This document shows, piece by piece, positions 22,747 through 39,501 of a DNA stretch of 39,501 nt. How positions within the stretch are numbered: the stretch's first letter is position 1; the number at the start of each line of letters is the position of its first letter. The stretch lies in the IMG/VR virus record IMGVR_UViG_3300020463_000045, positions 1 through 39,501 of that record. The stretch is one strand, 5' to 3'. The notes under the pieces are model-generated. The model saw only the letters and a program-made list of their open reading frames with translations, was not told where the DNA came from and did not search any database. The DNA comes from a virus. The position numbers and the translations under genes were made by a program.

Positions 22747-22824
22747 TGGCGCATCCGGCAGGACTCGAACCTGCGACCTACGGTTTAGAAGACCGTTGCT
22801 CTAATCCTGCTGAGCTACGGATGC
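22747..22824 (-). tRNA. tRNA-Arg (anticodon TCT)
   Basis: The minus strand folds into a full cloverleaf. The acceptor stem is GCATCCG with CGGATGC, the D stem is GCTC with GAGC, the anticodon stem is ACGGT with ACCGT around the loop CTTCTAA, and the T stem is GCAGG with CCTGC around TTCGAGT. The anticodon is TCT, so it reads AGA. The terminal CCA is encoded. AGA is a frequent Arg codon in this AT-rich phage, which gives the tRNA an obvious use in translating late genes. It lies between the last island gene and the terminator. Confidence 0.96.
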
Positions 22825-30359: not shown

Positions 30360-30540
30360 GACTTTCCTCGACACAAGTTTGAATTACCTTCATACTAATC
30401 ACACCCATGAAGTTAATTGATGGTTGTTCACTCTTATGGTTCATACAGATTGCTTTAGAATCTTTTGGTTCAGTGATGACAGCAGTCATCTCTTTCTCTG
30501 GTGTTGTGAAAATGATGGTAGTTAACAGTAACCATTTCAT
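30349..30540 (-). CDS. Small secreted-like protein, 63 aa
   Basis: The product begins MKWLLLTTIIFTTPEKEMTA, a short hydrophobic start like a signal peptide, and then has two Cys residues (AICMNHKS and IQTCVEES). If exported, these could form a disulfide. It starts as ATGA on the stop of the previous gene. Its placement near the glycine-zipper protein suggests a group acting at the envelope; this is inference. Confidence 0.58.
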   Translation of the reverse strand: MKWLLLTTIIFTTPEKEMTAVITEPKDSKAICMNHKSEQPSINFMGVISMKVIQTCVEESHGR

Positions 30541-30818
30541 ATCTGCTCTCCTTCTGATGCAGTAATACTTATCATCTTTTTCATGATACCTGTGACATCT
30601 TCTTCTGTCAAAAATCCCTTTACAGTGTCACCTTCTTGAGTGATGCCAGGCATCTCTACCAAATGATTGTCTTGAAAGACTGCAATCTCATACAGACCAT
30701 TCACATTACCATATGAACCAGAGTGTCTTATAACCGACAATTCATAGTCACCATATGATACCCTCGTACTAACTCCATCAAAAAACTTTACGAATTGTAA
30801 ATCATCAAATTTTTTCAT
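30537..30818 (-). CDS. Hypothetical protein, 93 aa
   Basis: The start at 30818 (MKKFDDLQFVKFFDGVSTRV) follows GGAGG in the end of the upstream gene, and the ATG overlaps its stop (TGATG). The rest, SYGDYELSVIRHSGSYGNVN and FQDNHLVEMPGITQEGDTVK, fits a small beta fold with a C-terminal helix (EDVTGIMKKMISITASE). No family is recognised. Confidence 0.68.
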   Translation of the reverse strand: MKKFDDLQFVKFFDGVSTRVSYGDYELSVIRHSGSYGNVNGLYEIAVFQDNHLVEMPGITQEGDTVKGFLTEEDVTGIMKKMISITASEGEQI

Positions 30819-31243
30819 CACGCAGCCTCCTTTATCCATCGTTGTAGTGTGGGTACGTCAATACCCAAAGACTTTGCAAGATTTGTTTCTTCCTCAATTG
30901 CTTTCTTTTCCATTTGTTCTTCCCACTTGCGTTCACGTGCCGCCGCATCGGAAGCATCCTTAATAACCTCTTCCACCTCTGCATCTGTCATAGATGCAAA
31001 ATCAAAAGAACGAGCATACGACTTGCTGTACGCATCTGCAACACAGTAGTAAGCATCCTCTTCAAGATTGATGCGATTGAACTCTTTCAGTGTACCAGAC
31101 GGTACACGTTCTGACCAATACTTGGTGTCAGATGGTTCAGCATACATACCCATCCAACAGCCAGGCTGTTTGGAAAACTCAATCGCCTCTGCACGTTGAG
31201 CATTAATAGTTTGAACCAGTTCTTTTTCCATCACATATGTCAT
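30818..31243 (-). CDS. Hypothetical protein, 141 aa
   Basis: The product starts MTYVMEKELVQTINAQRAEA, contains YWSERVPSGTLKEFNRINLE and ends NLAKSLGIDVPTLQRWIKEA plus A. The last 25 residues look like a helix-turn-helix (LAKSLGIDVPTLQRWI), so DNA binding is possible but weakly supported. The middle is a long charged helix (EVIKDASDAAARERKWEEQM). It is the first gene after promoter P3. Its last codons supply the ribosome site of the next gene. Confidence 0.68.
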   Translation of the reverse strand: MTYVMEKELVQTINAQRAEAIEFSKQPGCWMGMYAEPSDTKYWSERVPSGTLKEFNRINLEEDAYYCVADAYSKSYARSFDFASMTDAEVEEVIKDASDAAARERKWEEQMEKKAIEEETNLAKSLGIDVPTLQRWIKEAA

Positions 31244-37114: not shown

Positions 37115-37633
37115 ATGGCAGAGACATATTTTGATAAAATACAACAACAGGTAAAAACAGGTAACGAACCATACAAGTGGTATCGTAACCGTATTAAAGA
37201 GTTGGGTACACCTAGTGTGCCTGAACTGTTGCGTAGTGGTGATTTAGATAGAAGACCACATTTCGGTTCTTTGAATATGTTTGTATACTCACCCAAAATG
37301 AGAAACAAACTACCATACTATGACACGTTTCCATTGGTATTACCTCTTAGAAGATATAATGATGGTTTCCTTGGACTAAACTTTCACTACCTACCATATG
37401 CGTTAAGAGCAAGACTTCTTGATGCGGCTGGTGGTGACAGTTTAAGTGTTCGTGCAGTTGAAAACAATCGACTTACAAAACCATGTCTCAAGAGATATTT
37501 GTATGGGTTTACGAAATCAATGTTCCGTAAGATACCAGACGATGACAATCTCACCGCAATCATGTTACCAGTACAACGGTTTAAGAAAGCATCTGCAACT
37601 GAAGTCTGGTCAGATTCTAGGAAGATGATTTAA
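37115..37633 (+). CDS. Conserved T4-like protein of unknown function, 172 aa
   Basis: The product contains DKIQQQVKTGNEPYKWYRNR, then MRNKLPYYDTFPLVLPLRRY, FLGLNFHYLPYALRARLLDA, KPCLKRYLYGFTKSMFRKIP and ATEVWSDSRKMI. Such LPYYDxFPLVxPL and GLNxHYLPxxLRARL sequences recur in marine T4-like phages next to gp4, and I recall variable labels such as hypothetical or DNA end protector. I cannot assign a T4 number with certainty. It overlaps the next gene start (TTTAATGG) and is probably a virion or assembly protein. Confidence 0.72.
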   Translation: MAETYFDKIQQQVKTGNEPYKWYRNRIKELGTPSVPELLRSGDLDRRPHFGSLNMFVYSPKMRNKLPYYDTFPLVLPLRRYNDGFLGLNFHYLPYALRARLLDAAGGDSLSVRAVENNRLTKPCLKRYLYGFTKSMFRKIPDDDNLTAIMLPVQRFKKASATEVWSDSRKMI

Positions 37634-38361
37634 TGGCAAAGTTCAATTTCGGTAATGTCCTTGGTGGTGCAGTATTCGGTGGGTTAAATGCAATCCTGTC
37701 GCACAATGCGTCCAGAGATGGATATTCAAAAGCAAATCGTTATGAAGTCGTGGTTGGTCTACCAGCAGGAACAAACAATGCAGAGGCAGGTGACTCTGCA
37801 CAATCTGGTAACTTGTTATCACAACTACATGGTGAAACTGCAAGACGCATTTCATTTAGATGTGACAGTATTTCTATGCCTGGTAGAAACCTTCGTACTG
37901 TTATGAATGGTAATATATATGGCCCACCGCATGAAATGGTACAGGGTCAGACATTTGCAGAAGTTGCTGCAACATTCTATATGGGTTCTGATATGGCAGA
38001 AAGATATTTCTTTGAAGAATGGCAAAAGGTATCATACAATCCAGAAACATATAACATAAACTACTACAAAGAGTATGTCGGTGCTATTGAAATATATGCA
38101 CTTAACGAAAAAGACGAAAGAACAATGGGTGTTCGTCTGGAAGAGTGTTTTCCAAAAACAATTGATGCAGTACCCTTTTCTCATGCGTCAAGTAACACAA
38201 TAAATAAAGTTGGTGTTTCATTTGCATATCGTTATTGGAGAAATATTGCAACTGAACCCAAAAAGGCAAATCTTGATGATACACTTCAAGATATCTTGAA
38301 AAATTCTGTTATCAAACAAGTACAAAGTCAGATACCAGCAGTTTTGAGGCGATTATTTTAA
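37633..38361 (+). CDS. gp54: Tail-tube-like initiator, gp54-like
   Basis: A 242-aa protein (T4 gp54 has 320). It contains FGNVLGGAVFGGLNAILSHN, then ANRYEVVVGLPAG, RISFRCDSISMPGRNLRTVM, QGQTFAEVAATFYMGSDMAE, and INKVGVSFAYRYWRNIATEP. ISFRCDSISMPGR and VSFAYRYWR match the tube-like fold shared by gp19, gp48 and gp54. The order gp48/gp54/gp26 supports gp54, but gp19-like tube relatives cannot be excluded. It starts on the previous stop. Confidence 0.78.
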   Translation: MAKFNFGNVLGGAVFGGLNAILSHNASRDGYSKANRYEVVVGLPAGTNNAEAGDSAQSGNLLSQLHGETARRISFRCDSISMPGRNLRTVMNGNIYGPPHEMVQGQTFAEVAATFYMGSDMAERYFFEEWQKVSYNPETYNINYYKEYVGAIEIYALNEKDERTMGVRLEECFPKTIDAVPFSHASSNTINKVGVSFAYRYWRNIATEPKKANLDDTLQDILKNSVIKQVQSQIPAVLRRLF

Positions 38362-38383: not shown

Positions 38384-39091
38384 ATGGCATTGCCAAAGTT
38401 GAATACACCCACCTATGAGATGATACAACCATCCACAGGTGAAACGGTAAAGTTCCGTCCGTTTTTGGTAAAGGAACAAAAAATACTGATGATAGCACAA
38501 GAGACAGGTGAAGGACTAGAGATGTCTAATGCCATGTGCGAACTCATCAAATCATGTACTTTCGGTAAAATATCAGAACCAGAACACCTACCATCTTTTG
38601 ATATTGAATATATGTTTCTGAAGATTCGTTCTAAGTCAGTTGGTGATGAAGTTGACTTAAACATCACCTGTCCAGATGATGGTAAAACTGAAGTTCCATA
38701 CACCCTTAACTTAAATGATGTTGAGATACAGTATACTGAAGGTCATAAAGATACGATTATGATTACAGATACAGTCGGCATGACAATGAAATATCCATCT
38801 TTGGAAAATCTCAAAAAATATACCACAGATAAGTTGGGTGCGGTTGATGTGACATTTGGTGTAATCGGAGAGTGTCTTGTAAACATCTTTGATGAAAATG
38901 AAGTATATGAGGAACTTCCCAAAAAAGAACTGGATGAATTTATCGAATCCATGAACACTGACCAGTTTGCTGAAGTTCAATCATTCTTTGATGGTATTCC
39001 AAGATTAAGACATGAAATTGTTGTAACCAATCCAAATACTGGTAAAGAGAACAAAGTATTACTTGAAGGACTGCAAAGTTTTTTAGGGTAG
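38384..39091 (+). CDS. gp26: Baseplate hub assembly protein gp26
   Basis: A 235-aa protein of the gp26 family (T4 gp26 has 208). Visible features are MALPKLNTPTYEMIQPSTGE, then FRPFLVKEQKILMIAQETGE, IEYMFLKIRSKSVGDEVDL, the Cys in LNITCPDDGK, and a C-terminal QFAEVQSFFDGIPRLRHEIV. T4 gp26 is needed to assemble the hub, probably as a chaperone. The ORF ends TTT TTA GGG TAG. The T TTT TTA string is a slippery heptamer and an open -1 frame begins here, so a longer product is likely. The start has AGGAGAA before ATG. Confidence 0.92.
   Translation: MALPKLNTPTYEMIQPSTGETVKFRPFLVKEQKILMIAQETGEGLEMSNAMCELIKSCTFGKISEPEHLPSFDIEYMFLKIRSKSVGDEVDLNITCPDDGKTEVPYTLNLNDVEIQYTEGHKDTIMITDTVGMTMKYPSLENLKKYTTDKLGAVDVTFGVIGECLVNIFDENEVYEELPKKELDEFIESMNTDQFAEVQSFFDGIPRLRHEIVVTNPNTGKENKVLLEGLQSFLG
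39079..39085 (+). promoter_or_regulatory. Programmed -1 frameshift site T TTT TTA
   Basis: The heptamer T TTT TTA lies in the gp26 frame (39080-39082 TTT, 39083-39085 TTA), four codons before the stop. GAAGGA at 39065-39070 could act as an internal Shine-Dalgarno stimulator, and a small hairpin CTTTC-TCAT-GAAAG (39094-39107) begins eight bases downstream. The -1 frame is open from 39067 to 39282. All elements of bacterial -1 frameshifting are present. Confidence 0.75.
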
Positions 39092-39285
39092 GCCTTTCTC
39101 ATGAAAGTCTTAAAGGATACTATAAGACTAACTTTATTATGATGCAAAATTATCATTACAGTCTAACAGAGATAGATGAAATGATGCCGTGGGAAAGGGA
39201 AATATATGTGGGGATGTTACAACAACATATTGAAGAAGAAAATGAACGTATAAAGAGACAGAACGCACAGTACAATAATAAATAG
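39085..39285 (+). CDS. gp51: gp51-like extension of gp26 reached by -1 frameshift
   Basis: In the -1 frame after the slippery site, 66 codons follow: RVGLSHESLKGYYKTNFIMM, QNYHYSLTEIDEMMPWEREI, then a charged helix (LQQHIEEENERIKRQNAQYN). A GLSHESLKGYYKTNF and EMMPWERE pattern resembles the C-terminal part of tail assembly chaperones, and gp51 is the T4 gene next to 26. No ribosome site precedes the first ATG (39139), so a gp26-gp51 fusion of 300 aa is the most likely product. The frame ends at 39285 (TAG). Confidence 0.75.
   Translation, partial: RVGLSHESLKGYYKTNFIMMQNYHYSLTEIDEMMPWEREIYVGMLQQHIEEENERIKRQNAQYNNK
39277..39284 (+). promoter_or_regulatory. Late promoter candidate AATAAATA
   Basis: The plus strand reads CAATAATAAATAGTCC at the end of the gp51-like frame, 18 bases before the next ATG. 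One base differs from TATAAATA. It could drive the EF-hand gene. Confidence 0.4.
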
Positions 39286-39302: not shown

Positions 39303-39501
39303 ATGTCAGAAGAGAAGAAAACTATTACCGCAGACCCAGCAGTTTTAGATAAAGTTGACAGTAATGGTGATGGACACATTTCACATGAAGAAATGGAGAT
39401 GAATTTGGAATTTAAAAGAAAAGAGTTGGAAGATGCAGATGCTCGTAGAGATGCAATGCGTAAGATGACATGGTTTGCATTGATGGGTATGTTACTCTAT
39501 C
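39303..39501 (+). CDS. EF-hand membrane protein, 5' part only
   Basis: The gene begins at 39303 (AGAGGGAAAG ribosome site) and runs off the right edge, giving 66 residues. DSNGDGHISHEEMEM at about residues 19-33 is a canonical EF-hand Ca2+ loop (D1, N3, D5, H7, I8, E12). A charged helix follows, with RKMTWFALMGMLLY at the end entering a hydrophobic, probably transmembrane, segment. Calcium binding is inferred from the loop. Membrane position and function remain open because the C terminus is missing. Confidence 0.75.
   Translation, partial: MSEEKKTITADPAVLDKVDSNGDGHISHEEMEMNLEFKRKELEDADARRDAMRKMTWFALMGMLLY

Follow-up and report, generated by a model that had tools for sequence, protein, structure and literature searches.

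Among described tail chaperone frameshifts, those of phages lambda (gpG/gpGT) and P2 (E/E′) use a slippery heptamer that differs from the one at the locus examined here. The abstract of a 2022 study of T4-like phages reportedly states that frameshifting appears conserved in several groups of these phages and that T4 uses genes 26 and 51. A 2016 review treats G-T frameshifting as conserved in long-tailed phages, with T4 excepted (PMC5009743). Vladimirov, Gautam and Davidson identified which proteins act as tail assembly chaperones in T4-like phages (Virology 2022;566:9-15; PMID 34826709). One later paper cites that work for polyT slippery sequences in the TAC-N genes of T4-like phages (PMC12846349), and another cites it for some T4-like phages in which the short form and the fused long form have separate genes (PMC10885494).

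The locus reported here lies near the end of a 39,501-nt stretch of DNA from a marine T4-like phage (IMG/VR record IMGVR_UViG_3300020463_000045), called the window below. We conclude, with a probability of roughly 0.93, that a -1 frameshift joins the product of its gene 26 homologue to a gp51-like extension, giving the short and long forms of a G/GT-type tail chaperone pair. In this reading, we infer the slippage itself, its efficiency and the chaperone function. The T4-like systems of the 2022 paper also comprise short and long chaperone forms; however, its title stresses T4-type phages with a non-frameshift mechanism, whereas the window phage would rely on frameshifting (PMID 34826709). The tail chaperone frameshift of the Vandenendeviridae and Andersonviridae likewise combines a conserved polyT slippery site with a -1 extension before the tape measure gene, although its motif is GTTTTT and these are different phage families from that of the window phage (PMC12846349). 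Compared with the lambda and P2 systems (Xu, Hendrix and Duda 2004), relatives of the window phage have one further open reading frame (ORF) between the chaperone and tape measure genes.

The gene 26 ORF matches PF12322 (T4_baseplate) with an E value of 3.5e-64, and its product matches phrog_150 with an E value of 6.7e-67. As the sequence-only reading had proposed, T TTT TTA is present near the end of this frame and in slippery codon phase, being read T|TTT|TTA and followed by GGG TAG. The limits that it gave for the -1 frame also agree with the sequence: the frame is closed by a TGA at 39064-39066, is open from 39067 to 39282 (72 codons) and ends at a TAG, so that its overlap with the gp26 frame is 25 nt and contains the heptamer. 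In-phase heptamers occur in the window at 0.0038 per codon, and this is the only one that lies a few codons from a stop and is followed by an extension of at least 60 codons. The junction observation is thus correct and well beyond chance. Coordinates are collected in Table 1. Elsewhere in the window, a second, weak frameshift candidate was noted on the minus strand at 30537-30839, where a 100-aa ORF has AAAGGGA in phase, 27 codons short of its stop, and the -1 frame stays open for 62 codons beyond that stop.

Table 1. Features at the gp26/gp51 junction and its surroundings, in window coordinates
Feature	Position	Strand	Evidence
Tail tube-like protein, directly upstream	37633..38361	+	phrog_45 tail tube, E 5.3e-34
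Gene 26 homologue, predicted short tail assembly chaperone (TAC-N), 235 aa	38384..39091	+	PF12322, phrog_150, fold match 2OB9
GAAGGA, Shine-Dalgarno-like, 8 nt 5′ of heptamer; possible stimulator	39065..39070	+	sequence
Slippery heptamer T TTT TTA	39079..39085	+	
Predicted -1 frame extension, gp51-like (TAC-C), including stop TAG 39283-39285	39079..39285	+	phrog_634, end of phrog_150, selection, model
Zero-frame stop TAG of gp26, one codon past heptamer	39089..39091	+	
5-bp hairpin CTTTC-TCAT-GAAAG (stem A), weak, not conserved	39094..39107	+	
7-bp stem AGTCTTA/TAAGACT (stem B; arms 39106-39112 and 39123-39129), 20 nt past heptamer; weak candidate stimulator	39106..39129	+	
First ATG of -1 frame, without ribosome site	39139..39141	+	
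Next ORF, start; runs off the window	39303..39501	+	

The proposed mechanism is as follows. Gene 26 would encode the short form of the tail assembly chaperone. Ribosomes decoding U UUU UUA, with a single codon left ahead of the stop, would in a minority of passes slip back one base and read 66 more codons, producing a long form (TAC-NC) of about 300 aa (234 + 66) that carries the helical gp51 domain at its C-terminus. If the pair works like lambda gpG/gpGT (PMC5009743), the short form would coat or bind the tape measure protein, while tail tube subunits would be recruited by the long form, the rarer of the two.

Several observations concern the coding status of the -1 frame 5′ of its first ATG. 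Between the gp26 stop and the first ATG of the window, pN/pS in the -1 frame is 0.38-0.40, whereas the remaining two frames give about 1.0-1.3. The same contrast is seen in the 19 representative lineages that lack an ATG in this stretch. All 53 representatives are free of stops in the -1 frame up to the position of the window's first ATG, and the peptide LSH.SL..YYKTNF is conserved. The AlphaFold model of the extension is helical (pLDDT 86), with a predicted helix at residues 11-24. Judged by selection, then, the -1 frame appears to be translated upstream of its first ATG. As in frameshifted TAC-N/TAC-NC pairs, it overlaps the upstream frame, has no start of its own and is under coding selection.

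A rival account holds that gp51 is a separate protein, for which ribosomes re-initiate at an ATG of its own once they have passed the gp26 stop, and that the T run is a coding accident of Phe-Phe or Phe-Leu. Annotators usually call gp51 as its own gene, and most cyanophage-type relatives carry an ATG in the -1 frame 5 nt past the point where the gp26 stop begins; a few other relatives have TAATG or TGATG at the junction. However, the window and 18 other representative lineages have no ATG in the stretch, and the stretch is nevertheless selected as protein. In the window sequence, the -1 frame contains no ATG, GTG or TTG upstream of the ATG at 39139, and no purine-rich ribosome site lies immediately 5′ of it, in agreement with what had been read from the sequence. 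A start at this ATG would also cut through the predicted helix at residues 11-24. Selection, the conserved peptide and the interrupted helix thus make a separate gp51 gene starting at 39139 unlikely in the window. The window offers neither a start codon nor a ribosome site for an independent gp51; in the many cyanophages with an ATG just past the stop, and in the few other relatives with TAATG or TGATG, re-initiation could be an extra route that yields gp51 separately.

The frameshift reading is further supported by the persistence of the slippery run. Among 79 IMG/VR relatives with gp26 identities of 43-97%, all carry the T6 heptamer, and all have it exactly at -10 relative to the gp26 stop. 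A wider set, formed by adding further IMG/VR loci and reference phages, comprises 141 distinct junctions and includes cyanophages P-SSM2 and S-WAM1, pelagiphage HTVC008M, Methylophilales phage Melnitz-1, a vibriophage, rhizobial phages and Acidovorax phage ACP17. The heptamer is in phase in 139 of these junctions (131 at -10, seven at -7 and one at -13) and is kept in 46 of 47 clusters formed at 75%.

Codon choice points in the same direction. In the clusters with standard spacing, the Phe codon is TTT in 40 of 40, compared to 74% TTT elsewhere in the genes, and the codon before it ends in T in 40 of 40, with 65% of Ser codons ending in T elsewhere. This argument rests on an unselected codon table, the other table having used sequences picked for the T run. 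The invariant T-ending codons exceed what codon usage would give, which counts against a coding accident. One junction (L176) was rejected as a true loss of the heptamer because its gp26 frame stops early, probably through a sequencing or assembly indel, and subsequent counts exclude it. The distant relative Pseudomonas phage Cygsa01 (L092) has no slippery heptamer, and its gp26 and gp51 frames overlap as TAATG, which suggests that this lineage may use re-initiation in place of a frameshift.

The domain make-up of the T4 proteins also bears on the question. The extension of the window matches phrog_634 (baseplate hub assembly catalyst; gp51 family) with an E value of 6.9e-27, and it matches the C-terminal end of phrog_150 (gp26 family) as well, which indicates that the phrog_150 collection already holds long-form members. 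In T4 gp26, the match spans PF12322 and reaches phrog_150 position 235 of 282, the point at which the zero frame stops. In T4 gp51, residues 1-201 align to PF12322 and the match then continues to phrog_150 position 280 of 282, with a C-terminus that aligns with the window extension. The extension is therefore gp51-like, as had been claimed, and the locus combines the two features of the T4 gp26/gp51 family, namely a PF12322 domain in gp26 and a gp51-like C-terminal domain.

Based on these alignments, T4 gp51 consists of an entire gp26-like domain followed by the extension, and so represents the long form as a gene of its own. Because genes 26 and 51 of T4 lie on opposite strands and gp51 has this make-up, T4 makes its short and long forms from two genes. 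T4 gp26 corresponds to the short form and T4 gp51 to the long form, with the same domains as the window pair; the difference is that T4 has two genes on opposite strands that are not joined by a frameshift, whereas the window phage would use one gene and a frameshift. That T4 gp51 is itself a fused long form speaks against a free-standing gp51 in the window, and overall we regard a separately initiated gp51 with an accidental T run as very unlikely. Less probable still is transcriptional slippage by RNA polymerase on the T run, which would give a fraction of mRNAs with the frames fused: homopolymer runs of six to eight T residues are conserved and reading phase alone cannot tell the two processes apart, but six T residues are short for such slippage, in most relatives the run is closed by A, C or G, and it keeps precisely the X XXY YYZ phase, immediately 5′ of the stop, that ribosomal slippage would lead one to expect.

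Predicted structure and gene order are consistent with a tail chaperone. The best match for the predicted fold of gp26 residues 1-86 is the solved structure of the tail assembly chaperone of HK97 (2OB9), with a Z of 7.7 and 84 residues aligned at an rmsd of 3.5, followed by 3FGX (Z 7.6); the next, unrelated entry has a Z of 3.0. The short protein thus resembles TAC-N in its fold, a Z score under 8 being only moderate by itself. Foldseek alone found no significant match of the gp26 model in the PDB, PDB sequence searches with gp26 or the extension returned only unconvincing matches, and the extension fold had no significant match in a viral library. The chaperone gene lies between tail tube and tape measure genes, the tape measure side being taken from a relative (L003) because the window ends earlier. 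In that relative, the chaperone is followed by a 114-aa ORF and then by a tape measure-like ORF of 653 aa (L003:4270-6228; phrog_4070 tape measure, E 5e-8). The make-up of T4 gp51, the HK97 chaperone fold match and the nearby tape measure gene in relatives together argue that -1 frameshifting produces a chaperone pair of the G/GT type here. The earlier proposal that gp26/gp51 is the T4-type tail chaperone pair is supported.

Two further features of the window were observed. The ORF that begins just past the extension, at 39303-39501, and lies between chaperone and tape measure encodes a hydrophobic segment as well as an EF-hand-like stretch (DSNGDGHISHEEME). On the minus strand, a tRNA-Arg gene (anticodon TCT) at 22747-22824 includes a short stretch that shares about 88-91% identity with the tRNA-Arg found in T4-like phages of enterobacteria.

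The sequence-only reading had also named a Shine-Dalgarno-like motif and a downstream hairpin as possible accompaniments of the slippery site. The GAAGGA motif exists 8 nt before the heptamer; however, it codes for a conserved Glu-Gly whose codons show no conservation beyond that of the protein sequence, and some relatives lack the motif. We therefore rejected it as a stimulator, and as far as codon use can tell, it is a by-product of the conserved Glu-Gly. The 5-bp hairpin is likewise present, yet its pairing is weak, and the family as a whole does not conserve it: 54% of cells are paired in 46 representatives (p 0.39 against a codon-preserving null). The longer stem does no better than this null family-wide (p 0.19, 46 representatives), and RNAalifold predicted no conserved RNA structure downstream of the heptamer. 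A conserved downstream structure was thus rejected as a stimulator for the family, since both stems fail the codon-preserving null.

Within the clade of the window, the longer stem is paired at 0.865 compared to 0.796 +/- 0.015 under the codon-preserving null in 19 related sequences, a test inflated by shared ancestry. It is conceivable, if rather doubtful, that this stem is kept by paired changes in the clade and tunes the frameshift, that other marine T4-like phages manage without it, and that stimulators turn over around a fixed slippery run.

The frameshift-made chaperone of the window is well supported and is not new in kind, since a 2022 publication had already set out the principle for T4-like phages. 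None of the reference records examined annotates the long form as a joined gene; they either give gp51 an ORF of its own or lack it. Three cyanophage records (L082, L185 and L186) leave the conserved gp51 extension wholly unannotated, whereas other records list it as a gene in its own right. Thus, in a common group of marine T4-like phages the tail chaperone pair is very probably a product of frameshifting, and the public records examined for this group split or omit the long form. The comparison also makes the two-gene solution of T4, with a gp26-like domain inside gp51, easy to see.
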